This document shows positions 53,098 to 63,570 of a stretch of DNA of 64,000 nt, one piece after another. The notes under the pieces are model-generated. The model had not been told where the DNA came from, searched no databases, and saw only the letters and a list, made by a program, of their open reading frames with translations. Made by a program: the position numbers and the translations under genes. Each line of letters begins with the position of its first letter. Position 1 is the first letter of the stretch. This DNA is from Pseudomonas citri (GTDB lineage: Bacteria > Pseudomonadota > Gammaproteobacteria > Pseudomonadales > Pseudomonadaceae). The stretch is from positions 62,001 through 126,000 of the forward strand of contig NZ_JAODAB010000013.1 in NCBI RefSeq assembly GCF_025336485.1, in the 5' to 3' direction.

Positions 53098-54462
53098 TCA
53101 CCCCAACATCGGCTTGGGCACCGACGGATCTTCCTCTTCGGGAATCTTGACGAACACGCTGTACCGCGCCCCTTCCATCGCTTCGAAGGCGATGAGCTTG
53201 TCGATCAGCGGCCCGCTCATCACTTTGCCGGCGTTGAGCAGCAACATGCCGTTGTCGGCGTTGAGGTTGCGCGCCAAAACCATGCCGGGTGCCAGTTCGC
53301 GGGTGGTCATGACCTTGACCGTCGGGTCGGACAACGTCACGTCTTCCAGGTATTCGGCACAGGCCTTGATGAAGTCCTCGATCATGTCCGGGTCGTAGAG
53401 CTTGCCGGCGTACTTGCGGATGTAGACCAGCGCTTCATCGCTGTTCATCTGCCGCTCCAGGATCAACCCGCGCTGCAACTCGATGAAATCCACCGCCAGT
53501 TTCAACAGCCGCGAACCGAACGGAATGGCCTCGCCCTTGAGGTGGTCGGGAAAACCGCTGCCATCCCAACGCTCCTGGTGATGGAGAATGATGCGCGCCG
53601 CGTCCTTCATCGGGTCCAGGGTCATCAGCAGCGACTCGCTCTGCTTCGGATAGGCCCGGTACAACTCCAACTCGTTGTGGTGCAGCATGTCGGCGGGCGT
53701 GATCATCATGTTGTCGGTCCAGCTCAACTTGCCGATGTTGTACAACGCCGCGGCCATGGTCAGGTCGCGGTCGGTGGACTCATCCAGGAAATGCAGGCGG
53801 CTGTAGACCCTGATCAACTCGATGATCTGCCGGTTGGTCTGCTTGGCCTTGGGCAGACGCAGGTTGGCGATCAGCGAAAACACTTCGGTACCGGTCACGT
53901 AGCTGCGCTTGAGCTCTTCATAGGCCAGGTCGAGCATGTCGGCGGTCTGCTGCAACTCGGAGGTACGCGACGCCACGCGTTTTTCCAGGGTGGTGTTGAG
54001 GGTCTTGAGTTGCTGGTTCTGCTCGCGGGTCAACGCTTCGAGGCGCTGGCGCTCGCTTTCGGAATGCTGGTGGGCCAGGGCCTGGCGCAAGGCCTGCACC
54101 AGCTCATCATCGTTCCAGGGCTTGCTGAGATAACGATAAAGCCCCCCTTCGTTGATGGCCTTGGTCATCATGTCGACGTCGGCGTAACCGGTCAGCAGAA
54201 TGCGCAGCGTCGAAGGGTATAGCTTGCGAACCTGTGCCAACAGCGTCGCGCCGTCCATGTTGGGCATGCGCGCATCGGTCATCACCAGGTCGACCGGCCG
54301 CTCCTTGAGGATTTCCAGGGCCTTGGCGCCGCTGTCGGCGACGAGGAGTTCATACGGCTGGCTGCGCAATAATCGACGCAGGCTATTGAGAATCGGCTCT
54401 TCATCATCGACCAACAGTACCGTCGGCTTCTTGACCGGAACGTCCGGCGATAGATCTTCCAT
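53098..54462 (-). CDS. Response regulator with degenerate HD-GYP (YN-GYP) domain
   Basis: 454 residues. REC domain 1-125 with VLLVDDEE, phospho-Asp63 (MTDARMP) and the conserved Lys in YLSKPW. A coiled coil (about 130-185) leads to an HD-GYP-fold domain. The signature HD is replaced by YN (AALYNIGKLSW, 241-242) and the GYP motif by GFP in HHQERWDGSGFP (294-305). Canonical HD-GYP enzymes hydrolyse c-di-GMP to pGpG/GMP; without the HD metal ligands this one probably does not. P. aeruginosa PA2572 carries such a YN-GYP variant, a non-enzymatic regulator. Divergent from the GGDEF-EAL operon. Confidence 0.9.
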   Translation of the reverse strand: MEDLSPDVPVKKPTVLLVDDEEPILNSLRRLLRSQPYELLVADSGAKALEILKERPVDLVMTDARMPNMDGATLLAQVRKLYPSTLRILLTGYADVDMMTKAINEGGLYRYLSKPWNDDELVQALRQALAHQHSESERQRLEALTREQNQQLKTLNTTLEKRVASRTSELQQTADMLDLAYEELKRSYVTGTEVFSLIANLRLPKAKQTNRQIIELIRVYSRLHFLDESTDRDLTMAAALYNIGKLSWTDNMMITPADMLHHNELELYRAYPKQSESLLMTLDPMKDAARIILHHQERWDGSGFPDHLKGEAIPFGSRLLKLAVDFIELQRGLILERQMNSDEALVYIRKYAGKLYDPDMIEDFIKACAEYLEDVTLSDPTVKVMTTRELAPGMVLARNLNADNGMLLLNAGKVMSGPLIDKLIAFEAMEGARYSVFVKIPEEEDPSVPKPMLG

Positions 54463-54690
54463 TACAACCCCCTCCTGTTCACGACAACCGTTCTACCCTA
54501 CCCCCAAATGACAGGCTAGTAGATTGGGGAAATTTAGATACGATTTGCCATCATCGGCCGAGCGTATCCCGATGAGACGACTATGCTGTACCCCATGAAG
54601 GGCCAAGTACAGGCCAGAATACTCATGCCAGCGAAAGGGATATCAGATGTTTCCAGGGTTCTATAGTCAGCATCCCGACGGTGCACGGCC
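54463..54690. promoter_or_regulatory. Divergent promoter region of the c-di-GMP island
   Basis: 228 bases between the YN-GYP gene and the GGDEF-EAL operon. No clear palindrome or sigma54 site. The first operon gene lacks a strong ribosome-binding site (GTGCACGGCC before ATG 54691). Confidence 0.4.
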
Positions 54691-56982
54691 ATGAGCCTGC
54701 CGATGGAAAAAACCAATCGGCGGATCCTGATCGTCGACGACACCCAGACGATTCATGACGATTTTCGCAAGATCCTCAGCCCCCAGACCGTCTCGGAAGA
54801 CAGCCTGAGCAGCGCCGAAGAGGCCCTGTTCGGCGCGCCGGTGGCGGTCGCCACCCAGAGCTTCGCGCTCGATTCGGCCTTCCAGGGCATGGAAGCGCTG
54901 AACAAGGTCGAAACGGCGCTGGCCCAGGGGCAACCCTACGCCATGGCGTTCATCGACATGCGCATGCCGCCGGGCTGGGATGGCCTGGAAACCATCGAGC
55001 GGCTGTGGCGCGTCGACCCCAAGCTGCAAGTGGCCTTGTGCACCGCCTATTCGGATTATTCCTGGGAAGACATTTCCGAGCGCCTCGATCTGGGCGATCG
55101 CCTGCTCATCCTGAAAAAACCCTTCGATGCCATCGAGATCCGCCAGATGGCGAGCGCCCTGACGGTCAAATGGCAGATGACCGAGGACGCGGCGCTGAAG
55201 ATGGACCAGCTCGAACGGGCCGTGGAGGAGCGCACCCGCGAGCTGGCCGACGCCAACATCATCGTGCAGAACAGCCCGACCATCCTCTATCGTCTGCGAG
55301 GCGAGCCACCGTTCGCCTTGATGTACATCTCCCACAACATCACCAAGTTCGGCCATGTCGCGGCGCAACTGATCAGCTCGCCGGACTGGGCGCAGACCCT
55401 GATCCACCCCGACGACCAGGACAAGGTCCAGGAGGCCATGATCCGCGTGCTGGACCGCGACACGGCGGGCGCCTCCATCGAGTTCCGCATGCGCACCGGC
55501 GACGACACGTTCCGCTGGGTGGAAAACCGCTACATTCCGGTGCGCAACGAACAGGGCCTGTTGCTGGAAGTGGAAGGCATCATCCTGGACATCACCGAGC
55601 GCAAGCTGGCCGAAGAGAGAATCGCCCTGCTGGCCCGTACCGATGCCCTGACCGGCCTGGCCAACCGGGCCACGGTGATCGAACGCCTGCACCAGGCCTT
55701 CGCCGCCGCTCGCCGGGGGGCTACGCCGTTCGCGATGTTCTACTTGGACCTGGACCACTTCAAGCGGATCAACGACACCCTGGGCCATCCCATCGGCGAC
55801 CTGCTGTTGCAGGAAGTCGCCAGCCGCATCAAGTCCTGCACCCGGGAAAACGACGTGGTGGCGCGCCTGGGCGGCGACGAGTTCGCCATCCTGCAACTGG
55901 ACGTCCATGAAGCGACCCACTGTGCCGCGCTGGCGGCCAAGATCCGCGACGTCCTGGTGGCGCCCTACTCCCTGGACGGCAACGACGTACGCATCTCGGT
56001 CAGCATCGGCATCGCCTTGTACACCCCGCAGAGCCTGAGCGCGGACAGCCTGATGGCGCAATCGGACATGGCCCTGTACCGCTCCAAGGAAAAAGGCCGC
56101 AACCAGTACCACTTCCATAACGAGGAGATCAACCAGGAGGTCACCGACCGGGTCGCCCTGGCCAATGACCTGCGCCAGGCCATCGAGAACAACGAGCTGC
56201 AATTGCATTACCTGCCGGAAGTCGACCTGGGTACCGGCAAGATCCTCGGCATGGGCGTGCAGGTCCGCTGGAAGCACCCGCAGCGCGGTTGGCTGGAACC
56301 GTCGGTCTTCATGCCGACGGCAGAAAAGACCGGCATCATCATCGGTCTCGGCCATTGGGTGTTGGACCAGGCCTGCCAGCAGATGCGCCAGTGGCGCGAC
56401 CAGGGCATGGCGCCGCCGGTGATTGCCATCGACCTGTCCCTGACCCAGCTCAAGACCGGCCCGGAACTGATCTACGATGTGCTGCGCACCACCGCCCGCT
56501 GGGAACTGGCGCCCTGGGACCTGCGCTTCGACGTGACCGAAGCCACCCTGGCGCAGACCAAATGGACCCACAACGACGTGCTGCCGCGCCTCTGTGAACT
56601 GGGCGTGCAGATCGCCATCGACGATTTCGGCACCGAGTACTCCTCGTTCGATTACCTCAAGACCTATCGGGTCAATCACCTCAAGCTCGCGCAACGGTTC
56701 CTCGACAGCGCCAACGCCGACCCCGAGAACGCCACGACCTTGCGGGCCATCATCAATTTCGCCCGGGACGTGGGCATCGGCATCATTGCCGAGGGCGTCG
56801 AGACCCAGGAACAGCGCACCACGCTGATGTCCAGCGGCGGACCGATGCTGGCCCAGGGGCATTACTTCAGCACCGTGGTCGACAGTGGCCAGGCCGCCGA
56901 GCTGCTCAAGGCCGGCACCATCGTTCCCGTGGCCAACCACTGGACCAGGCCTGCGGGCGAGCTATCGGAGAGCAACCCATGA
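54691..56982 (+). CDS. REC-PAS-GGDEF-EAL protein with intact GGDEF and degenerate EAL
   Basis: 763 residues. An atypical REC domain (1-160; RRILIVDDTQTIHDDF, phospho-Asp89, [17 protein letters not shown]) contains an extra insertion of about 35 residues between strands 1 and 2. A coiled linker and a PAS/PAC domain (about 190-310) follow. GGDEF is intact (394-398) and carries an I-site RxxD five residues upstream (REND-VVARL-GGDEF), so it is an active, product-inhibited cyclase. The EAL domain has lost key residues: EAL is GVQ (522-524, in GMGVQVRW), and NISA-type Asn is Asp in DLSLTQ. The Asp of LKID is replaced (LKLAQRF). DDFGT and AEGVET remain. It should therefore make, not degrade, c-di-GMP. 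ATGA overlap with the next gene. Confidence 0.9.
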   Translation: MSLPMEKTNRRILIVDDTQTIHDDFRKILSPQTVSEDSLSSAEEALFGAPVAVATQSFALDSAFQGMEALNKVETALAQGQPYAMAFIDMRMPPGWDGLETIERLWRVDPKLQVALCTAYSDYSWEDISERLDLGDRLLILKKPFDAIEIRQMASALTVKWQMTEDAALKMDQLERAVEERTRELADANIIVQNSPTILYRLRGEPPFALMYISHNITKFGHVAAQLISSPDWAQTLIHPDDQDKVQEAMIRVLDRDTAGASIEFRMRTGDDTFRWVENRYIPVRNEQGLLLEVEGIILDITERKLAEERIALLARTDALTGLANRATVIERLHQAFAAARRGATPFAMFYLDLDHFKRINDTLGHPIGDLLLQEVASRIKSCTRENDVVARLGGDEFAILQLDVHEATHCAALAAKIRDVLVAPYSLDGNDVRISVSIGIALYTPQSLSADSLMAQSDMALYRSKEKGRNQYHFHNEEINQEVTDRVALANDLRQAIENNELQLHYLPEVDLGTGKILGMGVQVRWKHPQRGWLEPSVFMPTAEKTGIIIGLGHWVLDQACQQMRQWRDQGMAPPVIAIDLSLTQLKTGPELIYDVLRTTARWELAPWDLRFDVTEATLAQTKWTHNDVLPRLCELGVQIAIDDFGTEYSSFDYLKTYRVNHLKLAQRFLDSANADPENATTLRAIINFARDVGIGIIAEGVETQEQRTTLMSSGGPMLAQGHYFSTVVDSGQAAELLKAGTIVPVANHWTRPAGELSESNP

Positions 56983-58853
56983 ACCCCATGTCGGTACCTG
57001 CCAACCGGCGCATCCTGGTGGTGGACGACACGCCCGCTATCCACCAGGACTTTCGCAAGATCCTCAGCCCCAGCGCCGGCAGCGACGATTCGCTGGACGA
57101 CACCGAAAGCCTGCTGTTCGGCACCCCGCAGGTCAACCGGTTGCAATTCCAGATCGACTCGGCCTACCAAGGTGAAGAGGCGCTGGAGCTGGTCAAGCGC
57201 GCCCAGGCCGAGGGCCAGCCCTACGCCCTGGTGTTCGCCGACATGCGCATGCCCCCGGGCTGGGACGGCCTGCAAACCATCGAGCAGTTATGGAAGGTCG
57301 ACCCGCGGCTGCAAATCGCGTTGTGCACGGCGTTTTCCGATTACACCTGGGAAACCATGTCCGAACGGATCGAGTTCGACGATCAGTTGCTGATCCTCAA
57401 GAAACCCTTCGACACCCTGGAAATCCGCCAGATGGCCAGCGCCATGACCTGGAAATGGCAACTGGCCCAGGATGCGGCGAGAAAAATGCGCAGCCTGGAG
57501 CGCACCATCGAAGAACGCGTCCAGGAATTGCTCAAGGTCTCTCATCTGCTGCAATACGATGTGCTCACCGAGCTGCCCAACAGCATGTTGCTCGGCGATC
57601 GCCTGACCCAGGCCATGGCCCAGTGCCGTCGGCATGACCGGCAACTGGCGGTGATGTTCATCGGCCTGGACCGGTTCAAGCGTATCAATAACGGGCTGGG
57701 CCATCCGGTGGGCGACGAAATGCTCAAGCGCGTGGCGCGGGCCTTGGCCGGCGTGGTGCGCGAGTCCGACTCGGTGTTTCGCTACGGCTCCGATGAGTTC
57801 GTGGTGCTGATGGGGGACGTCAGCGACCCGCAGCAGACCAAGGGCGTGGCGGAAAAACTGCTGGCGGCCATCAGCACGCCCCAGCCCATCGAGGGCCACG
57901 ACCTGACCATCACGGCGAGCCTGGGCATCAGTGTGTACCCCACCGACGGTTTCGATGCCGTGGCGCTGATCAAGAAAGCCGAGACGGCGATGCGCAACGT
58001 CAAGGACACCGGGCCCAACGACTACCGTTTCTTCACCGAGGACATGAACCGCCGGGCCCGCCAGCAGCAGACCATCGAATCCGGCCTGCGCCTGGCCCTG
58101 CAACGCAAGGAGTTCGTGCTGCACTACCAGCCCAAGCTGGACCTGACGAGCGGCCGGGTGGTCGGCGTCGAGGCCCTGGTGCGCTGGAACCGGCCGGATT
58201 ACGGCCTGGTCTACCCCTCCGATTTCATCCCCGTGGCCGAAGACAGCGGGCTGATCGTGCCCTTGAGCCAATGGGTGCTCCAAGAGGCCTGCCAACAGGC
58301 CTGCCGCTGGCAAGCCGAGGGAATGCGGCCGTTATACCTGTCGGTGAACATCTCGGCCATCGATTTTCGCCAGCGCGGTTTCGTCGAAGGTATTGCCCGC
58401 ACCCTCAAGGAAAGCGGATTCGATCCGACATTATTGGAACTGGAGATCACCGAAAGCGTGCTCATGCAGAACATCGACACCACCGTCGCCGTTCTCAAGG
58501 CCATCAAGCAACTGGGGATACGGCTGGCCATCGATGACTTCGGCACCGGCTATTCGAGCCTGAGCTACCTGCAGAAATTTCCCGTGGATGTGCTGAAGAT
58601 CGACCAGTCGTTCGTCGGTGACCTGAGCATCGACAGCAACGACGCCAAGCTGGTGAGCACCATCATCAGCCTGGGCAAGAGCCTGAACCTGCACATCATC
58701 GCCGAAGGCGTGGAAACCCCTGAACAACTGGAGTTCCTCAAGCTGCACCAGTGTGAAGAGGCCCAGGGGTATTACTTCAGCAAGGCGGTGGAAGCGCAGG
58801 CTTTCGTCCAATGGGTAACCGAGTGGGAACAACGCCAGTACCCGTTTGCGTGA
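56979..58853 (+). CDS. REC-GGDEF-EAL protein with altered GGDEF and intact EAL
   Basis: 624 residues. Same atypical REC as its upstream neighbour (RRILVVDDTPAIHQDFRKIL; phospho-Asp88; [17 protein letters not shown]). The GGDEF motif is GSDEF (270-274); the second Gly, which contacts substrate, is Ser, though the I-site RESD is kept. The EAL domain is complete: GVEALVRW (398-400), LSVNISAIDF, ITESVL, IDDFGTGYSSLSYL, LKIDQSFV and AEGVET. It is predicted to be a c-di-GMP phosphodiesterase, perhaps with a GTP- or c-di-GMP-sensing GGDEF. It has no PAS domain. Overlaps the upstream gene by four bases and is followed 45 bases later by the peroxidase gene. Confidence 0.9.
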   Translation: MNPMSVPANRRILVVDDTPAIHQDFRKILSPSAGSDDSLDDTESLLFGTPQVNRLQFQIDSAYQGEEALELVKRAQAEGQPYALVFADMRMPPGWDGLQTIEQLWKVDPRLQIALCTAFSDYTWETMSERIEFDDQLLILKKPFDTLEIRQMASAMTWKWQLAQDAARKMRSLERTIEERVQELLKVSHLLQYDVLTELPNSMLLGDRLTQAMAQCRRHDRQLAVMFIGLDRFKRINNGLGHPVGDEMLKRVARALAGVVRESDSVFRYGSDEFVVLMGDVSDPQQTKGVAEKLLAAISTPQPIEGHDLTITASLGISVYPTDGFDAVALIKKAETAMRNVKDTGPNDYRFFTEDMNRRARQQQTIESGLRLALQRKEFVLHYQPKLDLTSGRVVGVEALVRWNRPDYGLVYPSDFIPVAEDSGLIVPLSQWVLQEACQQACRWQAEGMRPLYLSVNISAIDFRQRGFVEGIARTLKESGFDPTLLELEITESVLMQNIDTTVAVLKAIKQLGIRLAIDDFGTGYSSLSYLQKFPVDVLKIDQSFVGDLSIDSNDAKLVSTIISLGKSLNLHIIAEGVETPEQLEFLKLHQCEEAQGYYFSKAVEAQAFVQWVTEWEQRQYPFA

Positions 58854-58898
58854 GCACCTGAGCGTCATCAACCAAACGTTTTTCAAGGAATGCACCCC

Positions 58899-59858
58899 AT
58901 GGCATCACATGGACTGATTCTGGCGCTCGGCCTGCTCCTGGGAACGAGCCTGGCCGCTCACGCCGCGCCACTGGACGAACCGCTCAAACCCTTGCCCCCC
59001 CTTCCGGCCCTGGACCCCAAACGGGTCCAGCTGGGGTTGCGGTTGTTCAATGACCCGCGGCTGTCGGTCAACAACACCTTGTCCTGCGCCAGTTGCCATC
59101 GACTGGACAAGGGGGGAGCGGACGATAAACAGTTTTCCCTTGGCTTCGACGGCAAGCCGCTGGCAGTCAATACCCCCACGGTGTTCAACGCCGGCCTGAA
59201 CTTCCACCAGTTCTGGGACGGGCGCGTCGACACCCTGGAAGAGCAGGTGCACGCGGTGGTGATCAGCCCCACTGAAATGGGCAACACCTGGGAGGCGGTG
59301 GTCAAGCGCATCGCCGATGACCCCGGCTACGCCAAGGATTTCAAGCAGGCGTACCCCGATGGCGTGACCCCGGCCAACATCCAGGGCGCGCTGGCCGACT
59401 ATGAACGGACCCTGCAAACCCCCAACTCGCGCTTCGACCAATACCTGCTGGGCAATACCGACATCCTGACGCCCAGGGAAAAATTCGGTTACCAGCGTTT
59501 CAAGGAGTACGGCTGCATCGCTTGCCACCAGGGCGTGAACATCGGCGGCAACATGTTCCAGAAGTTCGGCGTGATGGGCGACTACATCGCGGACCGGGGC
59601 AACCCTACCCAGGCCGACGAAGGACGCTTCAACGTCACCGGCGACGAAGCGGACCGCCAGGTGTTCAAGGTGCCCAGCCTGCGCAACGTCGCCGTCACCG
59701 CGCCGTATTTTCACGCCGGCTCCGCGCCGACCCTGGAGAAGGCAGTGGAGGTGATGTTCAAGTACCAGTTGGGGCGTGAACCCACCGGCCAGGACACGGA
59801 ACTGATCGTCGAATTCCTCAAGACCCTGACCGGCGAATCGGAGGGCAAGCCGCTATGA
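58899..59858 (+). CDS. Periplasmic di-haem cytochrome c peroxidase
   Basis: 319 residues. Signal peptide MASHGLILALGLLLGTSLAAHA. Two haem-c motifs CASCH (63-67) and CIACH (206-210), plus the di-haem peroxidase signatures LGLRLFNDPRLSVNNTLSCASCHRLDKGGADD, NTPTVFNAGLNFHQFWDGRVDTLEEQ, MGNTWEAVV and FKVPSLRNVAVTAPYFHAGSAPTLEKAV. Reduces hydrogen peroxide with electrons from c-type cytochromes or azurin; fits the CcpA/MauG superfamily. ATG 58899 is preferred (AAGGA 9 bases upstream) over ATG 58890. Its presence inside a phosphorelay operon suggests redox or peroxide sensing; stop overlaps the kinase start. Confidence 0.92.
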   Translation: MASHGLILALGLLLGTSLAAHAAPLDEPLKPLPPLPALDPKRVQLGLRLFNDPRLSVNNTLSCASCHRLDKGGADDKQFSLGFDGKPLAVNTPTVFNAGLNFHQFWDGRVDTLEEQVHAVVISPTEMGNTWEAVVKRIADDPGYAKDFKQAYPDGVTPANIQGALADYERTLQTPNSRFDQYLLGNTDILTPREKFGYQRFKEYGCIACHQGVNIGGNMFQKFGVMGDYIADRGNPTQADEGRFNVTGDEADRQVFKVPSLRNVAVTAPYFHAGSAPTLEKAVEVMFKYQLGREPTGQDTELIVEFLKTLTGESEGKPL

Positions 59859-61657
59859 CTCTCCTGCGCCGCCTCGGCCTGCTGTTCATCGGCGTATTGC
59901 TCGCTTCGGTGCTGCTGTTCATGTACATCAATTCCAGCGCGCAACAAGCCGCCTCGTACATCGAATCGCGAGACCTGGTGCGCCAGCTCAAACAGCAGGA
60001 CGCCATCTGGGACAACGAAGTCCTCAAGGCGCGCGTCGCCCTGAGCCACAATTACGACCCGCTGGTCTCGCCCCTGCACGAGATGGCGCGTCTCTGGCAG
60101 CGCCTGGACACCATTGAGTCGGAGCCAGGCCGCCACGCGCCCACCCTCTGGGATAGCCAGCGCGAGCAATACCTCAAGGCGGTCAAGGAAAAAACCCGCC
60201 TGGTGGAACAGTTCAAGTCCCATAACTCGATACTGCGCAATTCCCTGGCGTTCCTGCCCACGGCCGAGGACGACATCCAAGGCCAGTTCGCCCAACTCTC
60301 CGACGCGGACAAACTGGCACTGCAAAACGTTGCCATCGACACCTACGACCTGCTGCTCAGCAGCATGGAATACGCCCAACTCACCACACCAGACATCGCC
60401 GCCGAAGTGCTGCTGGGGTTGAATCGGCTCGACGTCAACAAGGAACGCCTGCCCCAGGGCTTACAGGGTTCCATCGGCATCTTGAGCAAACACATTGCCC
60501 TGGTGCTGCGCGAACAACCCCGGGTCAATGAGTTGTTGGTGGGCATCGAGACGGTGCCCCTGTCCGACCAACTGGACGCCATTTCCAAGCTGCTCGAGCA
60601 GGACCAGCAAAAAGCCGCCGCCAAGTACCAGCGCAACCACGTGCTCCTGCTGGTGTTCGCCACCTTCCTGGTGCTGATCCTGATCTGGCTGGCGATCCGG
60701 CTGCTGCGCAGTTTCGCCGAAATCAAACGGGTCAACAGCGCCCTGAAGACCGCCAACGATGAACTGGAACAACGGGTCGAAGAACGCACCCGCCAGCTCA
60801 AGGATACCCAGAGCGAGCTGATGGACACGGCCCGCCAGGCGGGCATGGCGGAAATCGCCACCAACGTGCTGCATAACGTCGGTAACGTGCTCAACAGCGT
60901 GAACATCTCCGCCGATCTGGTCAGCCGCAAGCTGCGCAGCAGCAAGGCCCTGGGGCTGGGCAAGGCGATGCAACTGATCAACGAACACCCCCATGACCTC
61001 GGGCATTTCCTCAGCGAGGACGAAAAAGGCAAGCTGCTACCGGGCTATCTCAACCAGTTGGTGGAAGCCATTGGCACCGAGCAGCAAAGCCTGATCGATG
61101 AGCTGGCGCAACTGAGCAAAAGCGTCGACCACATCAAGGACATCGTCTCCACCCAGCAGTCCTATGCCGGCGCCAACAGTCTGCTGGAACCGCTGGTGGT
61201 CAGCGAACTGCTCGAAGACGCCCTGCGCATGAATTCCGGGGCGCTGACCCGCCATCACGTCACGGTGATCAAGGAATACGGCGACGTACCGCGGATCATG
61301 GGGGACAAGCACCGCTTGCTGCTGATCCTGATCAACCTGATCAGCAACGCCAAGTACGCCATGGCGGGGGTTTCCAACGATGCGCGGAACATGACCCTCA
61401 AGGCCGCGGTCGTAGATGGCGAGACCCTGCAAATCAGCGTCAAGGACGAAGGCGAAGGCATCCCGCAGGAAAACATGACGCGCATCTTCGCCCACGGTTT
61501 TACCACCCGTAAGGACGGTCACGGGTTTGGCCTGCACAGCTGCGCACTGGCGGCCATTGAAATGAACGGCCAACTCACCGCCCACAGCGAAGGGCCAGGC
61601 AAAGGGGCGACGTTCCAATTGCAAGTGCCCCTGAAACTTGCAGAGGGTGAACCATGA
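59855..61657 (+). CDS. Membrane histidine kinase with non-standard H-box
   Basis: 600 residues. N-terminal membrane helix (about 7-25), an all-helical periplasmic region (about 30-260, beginning NSSAQQAASYIESRDLVRQLKQQDAIWDNEVLKAR), a second helix (about 265-290), a coiled coil, then MAEIATNVLHNVGNVLNSVN with His340. The H-box has HNVGN instead of HE-N/P, so phosphate acceptance may follow an alternative mechanism. The HATPase has LLILINLISNAKYAM, VKDEGEGIP, IFAHGFTTRKDGHGFGLHSC. The sensor region may be a DAHL-type domain, which I cannot confirm. Start overlaps the peroxidase stop (ATGA) and its own stop overlaps the next gene. Confidence 0.88.
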   Translation: MTLLRRLGLLFIGVLLASVLLFMYINSSAQQAASYIESRDLVRQLKQQDAIWDNEVLKARVALSHNYDPLVSPLHEMARLWQRLDTIESEPGRHAPTLWDSQREQYLKAVKEKTRLVEQFKSHNSILRNSLAFLPTAEDDIQGQFAQLSDADKLALQNVAIDTYDLLLSSMEYAQLTTPDIAAEVLLGLNRLDVNKERLPQGLQGSIGILSKHIALVLREQPRVNELLVGIETVPLSDQLDAISKLLEQDQQKAAAKYQRNHVLLLVFATFLVLILIWLAIRLLRSFAEIKRVNSALKTANDELEQRVEERTRQLKDTQSELMDTARQAGMAEIATNVLHNVGNVLNSVNISADLVSRKLRSSKALGLGKAMQLINEHPHDLGHFLSEDEKGKLLPGYLNQLVEAIGTEQQSLIDELAQLSKSVDHIKDIVSTQQSYAGANSLLEPLVVSELLEDALRMNSGALTRHHVTVIKEYGDVPRIMGDKHRLLLILINLISNAKYAMAGVSNDARNMTLKAAVVDGETLQISVKDEGEGIPQENMTRIFAHGFTTRKDGHGFGLHSCALAAIEMNGQLTAHSEGPGKGATFQLQVPLKLAEGEP

Positions 61658-63060
61658 ATAACCTGAGTAACCGCCGCATCCTGTTGATCGACGATACGCC
61701 CGCCATTCATGACGATTTCCGCAAGATCCTCACCCCGCAGGACGAGGGCAACGCCGATCTGCAAGACATGGAAAACGCGCTGTTCGGCGACGCGCCGAAA
61801 CCTGTCACCACCGTGTTCGAACTCGACTCGGCCTATGGCGGCCAGGAGGGCCTGAGCAAGTTGCTGGACGCCACGGCCAAGGAGCAGCCCTACGCCCTGG
61901 CCTTCGTCGACATGCGCATGCCCGAAGGCTGGGATGGTGCCAAGACCATCGAGGAGCTGTGGAAGCGCGACCCCCAATTGCAGGTGGTGGTCTGTACGGC
62001 GTACTCGGATTATTCGTGGGATGAATTGCTCGACCGCCTGAATGGCCACGACCGCCTGCTGATCCTGAAGAAGCCCTTCGACAACATCGAAGTCCAGCAG
62101 ATGGCCAACACCCTGACCACCAAGTGGGAAATGACCTCCCGCGCGCAGTTGAAAATGAACAAGCTCGAAGACCTGGTGGAACAACGGACCCAGGCGTTCA
62201 AGCAAGCCAGCGAACTGCTGCAGATGGAGATCGACGAACGCAAGATGCTCGAAACCCAACTGGTGCAATCGGAAAAACTCGCCTCGCTGGGTCAACTGGC
62301 GGCGGGGGTGGCCCATGAGATCAACAACCCGATCGGCTTCATCTCTTCCAACCTGGGGGCGCTGGACGGTTATTTCGGCAAGCTCCAGGAAATGCTCCAG
62401 GCCTATGACAGCGCCGAAGAGGCCATTGCCTCGGCCGAATTGGTGGTGCGCTTGAGAAAACTGCGCGAACAGGTGGAGCTGGATTTCCTGGTCGAGGACA
62501 TTCCGCTGCTGATCAAGGAGTCCAAGGACGGCATCGCCCGGGTCGGACAGATCGTCAAGGACCTGAAGGATTTCTCCCGCGTGGACTCCAATCAGGAATG
62601 GCAGATGGCCAATCTGCAACAGGGCATGGATTCGACGCTGAACATCGTCGCCAATGAAATCAAGTACAAGGCCGACGTGGTCAAGGAGTACACGCCGCTG
62701 CCGGAAGTGGAATGCCTGCCGTCGCAAATCAACCAGGTGATCATGAACCTGATCGTCAACGCCGCCCAGGCCATCGGCCCCGAGCGCGGCACCATCACCC
62801 TGCGCAACGGTATCGGCGACGAAACCGTGTGGATCGAAGTCGCCGACAACGGCTCGGGCATCCCACCGGAAACGCTGCAAAAGATCTTCGACCCGTTCTT
62901 CACCACCAAGCCCATCGGCCAAGGGACCGGGCTTGGGCTTTCGTTGTCCTATGGGATCGTGAAAAAGCATAACGGCGAAATCACCGTGCGCAGCGAAGTG
63001 GGCGTAGGGACGACGTTCCGTGTTGAGTTGCCAATTCGGCAGATGAAATTGGCGGGGTGA
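61654..63060 (+). CDS. REC-histidine kinase hybrid of the c-di-GMP island
   Basis: 468 residues, soluble. The atypical REC ([20 protein letters not shown], phospho-Asp86, [17 protein letters not shown]) is the sister of those in the two GGDEF-EAL proteins. A coiled coil (about 165-205) precedes HisKA with [13 protein letters not shown] (His221). HATPase has [41 protein letters not shown]. It can both receive phosphate at its REC and phosphorylate others, so it may relay from the membrane kinase to the two c-di-GMP proteins. Ends the operon; a large inverted repeat follows. Confidence 0.9.
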
Positions 63061-63079
63061 GCCCGGAAGGGGATCATCT

Positions 63080-63209
63080 GTGGCGAGGGGATTCATCCCC
63101 GCTGGGCTGCGCAGCAGCCCCATTGCCGCGGGTTCAATTTGCCTGACACACCCGGGTGGCAGATCTTAGGGCTGCTCGGCAGCCCAGCGGGGATAAATCC
63201 CCTCGCCAC
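63080..63209. repeat. Large imperfect inverted repeat (about 32-bp arms)
   Basis: GTGGCGAGGGGATTCATCCCC + GCTGGGCTGC on the left and GCAGCCCAGC + GGGGATAAATCCCCTCGCCAC on the right, with about 60 bases between. The core matches the hairpin at 3189-3223, so this is a bipartite interspersed element downstream of the operon. Confidence 0.85.
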
Positions 63210-63273
63210 GGGGTTGCCCAGCGTTTCGCCACCAGCGCAGAATGCCCCACCGCCCCCTTCCCAAGGAAACCGC

Positions 63274-63570
63274 ATGAGCCTGTCTCTGCTGAGCCGTTAC
63301 GCCTTCTTTGCCGGCTGTGTGCTGTTCACGCTCGCCAGCCTACCGTTCCTGGAGCATGACTGGCTCTGGCTGATCACGCTGGTGACCGGGCTCTTGAGTC
63401 TGCTGGGGCTGTTCGACCTGTTGCAAAGCCGCCATGCCGTACGGCGCAATTACCCGATCCTGGGCAATATCCGCTATCTGGTCGAAGGCATCCGTCCGGA
63501 ATTGCTCTCCATATCACTAACCATACTAACAACAGCAACACCCCAGACTGACGGCCACGGCGCTGCATAA
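63274..63570 (+). pseudogene. Truncated FMN-binding glutamate synthase-family gene
   Basis: 98-residue frame. Residues 1-76 (MSLSLLSRYAFFAGCVLFTL, two membrane helices, then GLFDLLQSRHAVRRNYPILGNIRYLVEGIRPE) are the N-terminus of the membrane-linked FMN glutamate-synthase-like family (about 500-540 residues). After Glu76, near 63501, the sequence turns into unrelated LLSISLTILTTATPQTDG and a stop. The rest of the gene is missing. The break coincides with a shift to AT-richer DNA, so the gene was probably cut by insertion of a mobile element. ATG 63274 has AAGGAAACCGC upstream. Confidence 0.78.

Follow-up and report, generated by a model that had tools for sequence, protein, structure and literature searches.

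Why would a bacterium keep, in two overlapping genes, two proteins that each carry one domain for the synthesis and one for the breakdown of cyclic diguanylate (c-di-GMP), when the domain disabled in one is the domain left live in the other? The question is raised by a locus in the stretch of Pseudomonas citri DNA analysed here (64,000 nucleotides of contig NZ_JAODAB010000013.1, called the window; positions are counted from its first nucleotide, and features lie on the plus strand unless stated otherwise). Pfam domains and individual residues define P1 (54691-56982), a REC-PAS-GGDEF-EAL response regulator predicted to be a diguanylate cyclase with a disabled EAL domain, and P2 (56979-58853), a REC-GGDEF-EAL response regulator predicted to be a c-di-GMP phosphodiesterase with a disabled GGDEF domain. 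The stop codon of P1 and the start codon of P2 share the four bases ATGA (56979-56982), so that a predicted writer and a predicted eraser are encoded by adjacent, co-oriented genes, in line with an operon pair and with a sequence-only reading of this DNA, whose coordinates, domains and overlap were all recovered. We consider it probable (roughly 60%) that the locus encodes a two-component c-di-GMP switch of the NahK/NarR kind, in which the output is split over two proteins and does not reside in one bifunctional regulator.

The REC domain of P1 (54718-55170) was placed by Pfam, by a tree of REC domains and by REC identity, and is of a type common to P2 and to a REC kinase encoded downstream. 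It is followed by a PAS domain (55324-55581; Pfam PAS_3, modelled with low structural confidence), a GGDEF domain (55636-56106) and an EAL domain (56164-56871), the last two defined by Pfam and residues. As had been read earlier, the GGDEF domain and its inhibitory site (I-site) are intact, with D353, N361, D370, RxxD at 385-388 and GGDEF at 394-398. The EAL domain is changed at three of nine positions: the glutamate at 522 is glycine, the asparagine at 581 is aspartate and the aspartate of metal site 2 at 667 is alanine. The earlier view that this EAL domain is lost, with GVQ in place of EAL, agrees with these changes, but its addition that the other ligands are gone is untrue of the remaining six, E617, D644, D645, K665, E701 and Q722. 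P2 carries its REC domain at 57000-57452 (same three kinds of evidence), a GGDEF domain at 57552-58019 (residues) and an EAL domain at 58086-58784 (Pfam and residues). The full set of EAL ligands is present (E398, N457, E492, D519, D520, K540, D542, E576 and Q596). In the GGDEF domain, GGDEF reads GSDEF, the first metal-binding aspartate is Gly229 and IND is INN, and the guanine-contacting asparagine and aspartate and the RxxD motif are retained. The complete EAL domain and GSDEF had been noticed before, but Gly229 and INN had been missed.

Residue equivalence to studied proteins was judged by exact spacing. PleD D327, N335 and D344 are reported to be essential for cyclases (PMC7288161), and with G368 they lie at +0, +8, +17 and +41 (PMC7911125), a spacing matched by P1 D353, N361, D370 and G394 and by P2 G229, N237, D246 and G270. 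For the EAL domain, BlrP1 D302, D303, K323 and D325 (PMC3989770) are spaced as are P2 D519, D520, K540 and D542 and P1 D644, D645, K665 and A667. PA3825 D160, D161 and D183 have the same spacing as the BlrP1 set, and D183, the aspartate 23 residues past the first aspartate of DDFG, is a ligand of the second metal in the magnesium-bound form (PMC5301497). D318 of RocR was discarded as a reference, the single matching paper using D318 for another protein. Structure models reached a mean predicted local distance difference test score of 79.6 for P2 and 72.2 for P1, in which the PAS domain was poorly modelled and the end of the EAL domain was weak; the closest solved sequences and folds to P2 were MorA (4rnh) and PA0575 (5m3c).

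Two sets of relatives were compared with the window. A REC domain of this type was found in 60 of 149 sampled genomes of the genus, the window's own included, and 59 stretches were taken from 57 of the 59 other genomes (all except G018 and G138); P1 or P2 rows below 60% identity or 60% coverage were dropped (P1 of L040 and the P2 pieces of L025). The second set, the named relatives, comprised the 80 best named matches to P1, including P. thivervalensis, P. brassicacearum, P. kilonensis and P. corrugata at 91-94%. P2 was matched at every one of these loci, and since one match (L121) was too short for the filter, 79 were usable. The two sets overlap, so their counts were not added. One named locus, in Marinobacterium rhizophilum (L153), has P1 (71% identical), P2 (reading GGDEF), the peroxidase and the DAHL kinase described below, which suggests transfer or a range wider than Pseudomonas. 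In another genus of the family (L077:2268-4630), the P1 REC domain and its PAS-GGDEF-EAL part occupy separate frames next to another kinase and away from P2.

The opposite defects of P1 and P2 were constant among the named relatives. Every checked cyclase residue of P1 (the metal aspartate, the equivalents of N335 and D344, and GG(D/E)EF) was kept in all 80 and in the window, and the metal-2 aspartate of the EAL domain was replaced in all 80 (by Ala in 75, Asn in 3 and Thr in 2); the same aspartate was missing from 40 of 40 P1 proteins of the REC set (39 and the window). As a control, it was present in all 18 classified GGDEF-EAL paralogues of this genome. Conversely, the cyclase metal aspartate was found in none of the 79 P2 proteins, glycine taking its place and INN that of IND in each, nor in any of the 54 of the REC set (53 and the window), and the EAL ligands of P2 were complete in 78 of 79, the remaining protein being truncated. 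The alignment that had been proposed as a check thus bore out the asymmetry, the disabled half being fully intact in 0/80 P1 and 0/79 P2. On these residues, P1 is predicted to be a cyclase with an EAL domain unlikely to be an active phosphodiesterase, and P2 a phosphodiesterase unlikely to synthesize c-di-GMP.

The letters of the motifs alone mislead. GVQ was read in 17 of 80 P1 proteins and EAL in 13, and the P2 motif was GSDEF in 63, RSDEF in 7, GADEF in 6, GGDEF in 2 and GADKF in 1; the 13 with EAL and the two with GGDEF each lack a metal ligand. GVQ and GSDEF therefore do not define the defects, as had been supposed; the losses of the metal-binding aspartates are what is constant. Since the metal-2 aspartate is missing from every P1 seen, its loss probably predates the GVQ of the window. 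The same variation bears on whether bifunctionality persists, with the P1 EAL domain still hydrolysing some c-di-GMP in species where its Glu and Asn are intact, or P2 still synthesizing it. Thirteen of the 80 P1 proteins do keep E, N, E, D, D, K, E and Q, minus the metal-2 aspartate, and all P2 proteins keep the equivalents of N335 and D344; we nevertheless think this very unlikely, because no P1 has the complete set of EAL ligands, the glycine of DFGTG occurs in 0/80 and is Glu or Asp in 79/80, and the metal aspartate reported to be essential (PMC7288161) is absent from 79/79 P2.

The disabled domains look preserved by selection. Median ratios of nonsynonymous to synonymous substitution (dN/dS) were 0.159, 0.164, 0.154 and 0.173 for the REC, PAS, GGDEF and EAL domains of P1, and 0.195, 0.166 and 0.170 for the REC, GGDEF and EAL domains of P2 (about a quarter of the pairs were sampled, and a pair was used only if the proportion of synonymous differences, pS, satisfied 0.1 < pS < 0.6). 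Disabled domains are therefore about as constrained as live ones, and since they evolve no faster, decay, the word used earlier, is the wrong one for what had rightly been seen as their retention; the equation of motif loss with decay was rejected. That the disabled halves are functionless relics in slow decay might be read from the P1 EAL domain, where the Glu position (retained in 57/80) varies between lineages as E, G, A, Q or S and the Asn position (retained in 13/80) as K, N, D, H, R or Q, but the dN/dS values (0.173 against 0.154 in P1, 0.166 against 0.170 in P2) and core residues of the disabled domains that align in 80/80 P1 and 79/79 P2 make it highly improbable.

What the retained domains might do differs between the two proteins, and both would be kept as structural or regulatory parts. 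In the P1 EAL domain, E617, both aspartates and the lysine are retained in nearly all rows; the arginine following EAL was kept in 22 of 40 and the preceding glutamine also varies. The corresponding Arg192 of BlrP1 holds the substrate (PMC3989770). A structural role would account for this variability better than constant binding of c-di-GMP, and the most likely function of the domain is in dimer geometry or in contact with P2. The P2 GGDEF domain keeps the equivalents of N335 and D344 in 79/79 and the RxxD I-site and DEF in 78/79 each, in the absence of the metal aspartate, which fits a nucleotide-binding role; with these guanine-contacting residues and RxxD, it could bind GTP or c-di-GMP and so tune the EAL domain. 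We take the N-terminal parts of MorA, PA0575 and CC3396 to differ from that of P2. In CC3396, a degenerate GGDEF domain binds GTP and activates the EAL domain (PMC7288161); unlike CC3396, MorA and PA0575, P2 has a GGDEF domain lacking the metal aspartate.

Both proteins appear to be wired to the same input. In the window, the two REC domains share 66% identity, and in the REC tree P1 and P2 RECs group together (98/95), apart from the REC kinase and from outgroups; the phospho-acceptor aspartate is kept in 80/80 P1 and 79/79 P2, and in the REC set one P1, a second copy (L025), has asparagine there. The earlier claim of one REC type thus stands. The junction of the two genes is ATGA in 70, GTGA in 8 and ATAG in 1 of the 79 named relatives, giving the four-base overlap in 78; the script that counted overlaps picked the start codon nearest to a four-base overlap, and a recheck made independently of that choice gave the same count. 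Opposite live halves by themselves are not rare: among 18 other GGDEF-EAL proteins classified in this genome, both halves are intact in 10, only the EAL half in 5 and only the GGDEF half in 3, so that two drawn at random would be opposite about 1 time in 10. The pair goes beyond chance in sharing a REC type, in conserving its overlap and in the fixation of the pattern in all usable relatives with both genes; since these relatives share ancestry, the 80 are not independent events.

Downstream of P2 lie genes for a MauG/MbnH-like di-heme cytochrome c peroxidase (58890-59858; Pfam CCP_MauG, with NCBIfam matches under the cut-off), a DAHL-domain sensor histidine kinase (59855-61657; Pfam DAHL and HATPase_c) and the REC kinase, a REC-HisKA-HATPase protein with the same type of REC (61654-63060; Pfam and REC tree). 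The H-box of the DAHL kinase, HNVGNVLNS, was found in 58 of 58 rows. We regard this protein as the probable cognate kinase from its domains, its H-box and the adjacency of such kinases to such RECs elsewhere. At our threshold, the REC was found in 21 of 369 genomes at class level, the window's own included, and in 22 of 398 at phylum level; 12 of the 20 other class-level genomes were surveyed for kinases and compared by hand. Kinases resembling the DAHL kinase were present in 11 of these 12, and of 17 such kinases in total, 11 lay within 100 bases of a REC of this type and 2 others within about 2.3 kb. Eight full-length outgroup REC-GGDEF-EAL proteins lack none of the catalytic residues checked in either half, two of the eight being without the I-site.

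Three outgroup loci were examined for gene order. Two (L066 and L074) have the order FIST protein, kinase, REC-GGDEF-EAL regulator, and on gene order and domains we identify them as NosP-NahK-NarR; in the third (L071) the kinase is a hybrid one, and the open reading frame listing shows no FIST-like gene of at least 200 codons just upstream. The nosP-nahK-narR operon encodes a bifunctional NarR whose cyclase activity is lowered by phosphorylation (PMC11237717). Like Legionella pneumophila NosP-NahK-NarR, the window has the same type of REC next to the same type of kinase (the H-box is HNIGNVLNS in L066 and HNVGNVLNS in the window), and NarR shares the REC-PAS-GGDEF-EAL architecture of P1. Unlike that system, in which one protein has both halves live, the window has two proteins with one live half each, a DAHL domain in its kinase and no neighbouring FIST gene.

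On this basis, the DAHL kinase, presumably in the membrane, would phosphorylate the similar REC domains of the writer P1, the eraser P2 and the REC kinase, possibly on a signal from the di-heme peroxidase, which would be exported. By analogy with NarR (PMC11237717), phosphorylation would be expected to lower synthesis by P1 and to leave or raise hydrolysis by P2. Such a signal, by reaching both enzymes, should adjust the balance between synthesis and breakdown; it would not act as a switch on a single enzyme. Two further kinases of this genome were seen beside this subject. A second DAHL kinase (L186:4777-6564, contig C44), 71% identical in its kinase part, has no response regulator among its listed neighbouring open reading frames and might feed these RECs as a second input, in the way that HnoS stands beside HnoK; a third kinase with the HNVGNVLNS H-box (L187:4952-6235, contig C61) lies upstream of an apparent chemotaxis receptor gene. 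A literature search for "DAHL domain" with "histidine kinase" found no paper.

Several observations weigh against a split switch of the NahK/NarR kind. Most ligands of the P1 EAL domain are kept, and in some species the domain might still show weak binding or activity. One of the 12 surveyed outgroup genomes has no such kinase at threshold, 4 of the 17 kinases are far from any such REC, and the second DAHL kinase may be the actual cognate or an additional one. The FIST (NosP-like) gene is absent from the cluster, its sole match in the genome lying on another contig (C33), and no HNOB domain was found in the window's genome; the input thus need not be nitric oxide, which is not claimed as the signal. 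Nor is pairing essential. Counted by hand, P1 and P2 occur together in 37 of the 59 stretches, P1 with P2-like gene pieces in 1, P1 without P2 in 2, P2 without P1 in 16 (one of them a second copy outside the cluster) and neither in 3, where the peroxidase and the kinases are still present. In a tree of the peroxidase, DAHL kinase and REC kinase (59 rows; a marker gene is missing in L019, L025, L038, L041 and L061), presence of P1 needs 7 changes and that of P2 needs 4, from which loss appears recurrent, in a tree whose root was not inferred, so that the count cannot separate gain from loss. The expectation of an antagonistic pair driven by one input therefore holds for the shared REC, but the pair is not closed, the REC kinase having the same REC and an HD-GYP regulator standing at the locus, and antagonism is optional because the eraser often occurs without the writer.

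Origin is the last of these points. In a tree of GGDEF-EAL parts (10 P1, 13 P2, 8 outgroup proteins and 18 paralogues), P1 and P2 were each monophyletic (100/100) and not sisters; constraining them to be sisters cost 8.2 log units (approximately unbiased test, p 0.32). Their descent from one NarR-like gene is therefore unproven, the test neither rejecting nor establishing sisterhood. Tandem duplication was set aside as the origin of the pair, given the non-sister tree and only 36% identity between the GGDEF-EAL parts in the window, not exceeding their identity to other paralogues of the genome; with p at 0.32, neither side is claimed. These results speak for a simple division of labour, in which two independently recruited GGDEF-EAL proteins are co-transcribed and share a REC through domain shuffling, having only a kinase in common. 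Single live halves are common among GGDEF-EAL proteins (8 of the 18 classified paralogues), and either partner can be lost. This account is possible, but we find it doubtful in view of the overlap in 78/79, the common REC type and the both-halves-intact state of all eight outgroup regulators with this REC. It also has to accommodate L041, in which the P2 REC nests among P1 RECs and the P1 and P2 REC DNA is 91% identical, against 60-75% in the 21 other loci where it could be measured (22 including L041 and the window), which suggests that, in one lineage, gene conversion has acted on the input domain alone.

The remaining neighbour is a divergent gene on the minus strand (53098-54462) for a REC-HD-GYP response regulator (Pfam HD_5), which scores 585.5 bits, against a cut-off of 400, with NCBIfam NF053512, the NosR family response regulator c-di-GMP phosphodiesterase. 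Against what we take to be the canonical letters HD, HHE and GYP, it reads YN, HHQ and GFP. Among 74 relatives (6 of the 80 loci had no usable row), the HD motif is YN or HN, D being N in 74/74 and H being Y in 63/74, and HHE is HHQ (YHQ in one) in 74/74, so that the metal ligands for a phosphodiesterase are missing despite the family label. HnoD, a degenerate HD-GYP regulator, contacts the phosphodiesterase HnoB directly and thereby suppresses it (PMC6335343), and by analogy the regulator of the window may be a non-enzymatic inhibitor of a phosphodiesterase. A further scheme, which we put forward as speculation and think unlikely, is that in Pseudomonas two half-dead regulators have taken the place of a bifunctional one resembling NarR, their RECs being kept alike partly by gene conversion; the dead halves would bind across the pair in a mixed P1-P2 complex and so complete, in trans, a machine like NarR, to which the HD-GYP regulator would add a third subunit without enzymatic activity. 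As to the peroxidase, it lies within the signalling operon and is retained even where both P1 and P2 are missing (L058-L060); a signal-like start and two CxxCH motifs, identified by eye, suggest that it is probably exported. A scan of 54300-63300 found no sigma-70-like promoter, although the scan was uninformative.

The split switch of the NahK/NarR kind also resembles other known arrangements. Escherichia coli DgcO presumably has no EAL domain. Its operon with PdeO (DosC/DosP) likewise joins an antagonistic writer and eraser with related input (PMC5635695, PMC8846402), the sensors there being heme domains, unlike the REC domains of P1 and P2. HnoB and HnoD of Shewanella oneidensis combine a phosphodiesterase regulator and a degenerate HD-GYP regulator under shared kinases, but the available portion of the report (PMC6335343) describes no cyclase twin, and the HD-GYP regulator of the window is a putative counterpart of HnoD. 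The genome of the window also holds a CfcR-like REC-PAS-GGDEF-EAL gene (L176:691-2814) in which the EAL asparagine is serine; unlike P1, to which it is 30% identical, it was not one of the genome's three REC matches. Pseudomonas putida CfcR, which we take to be Rup4959 and to be of REC-PAS-GGDEF-EAL architecture, is like P1 in its live GGDEF and degenerate EAL domains, and we know of no phosphodiesterase twin for it. The relative PFLU5698 has a degenerate second domain (PMC6531821). F113 is, we presume, a relative. Published work on its c-di-GMP genes (PMC5792552) may well contain this locus unstudied; in the excerpts available from the literature, no description of the locus was found.

The arrangement is real, conserved and well defined, and it is a variant of NarR, of DgcO/PdeO-type pairs and of degenerate GGDEF-EAL proteins, not a new class. 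Its value lies in reciprocally disabled halves that are under selection, joined to one type of REC, with natural single absences at the locus: because related species have lost either partner, what the dead domains contribute would be testable across strains.

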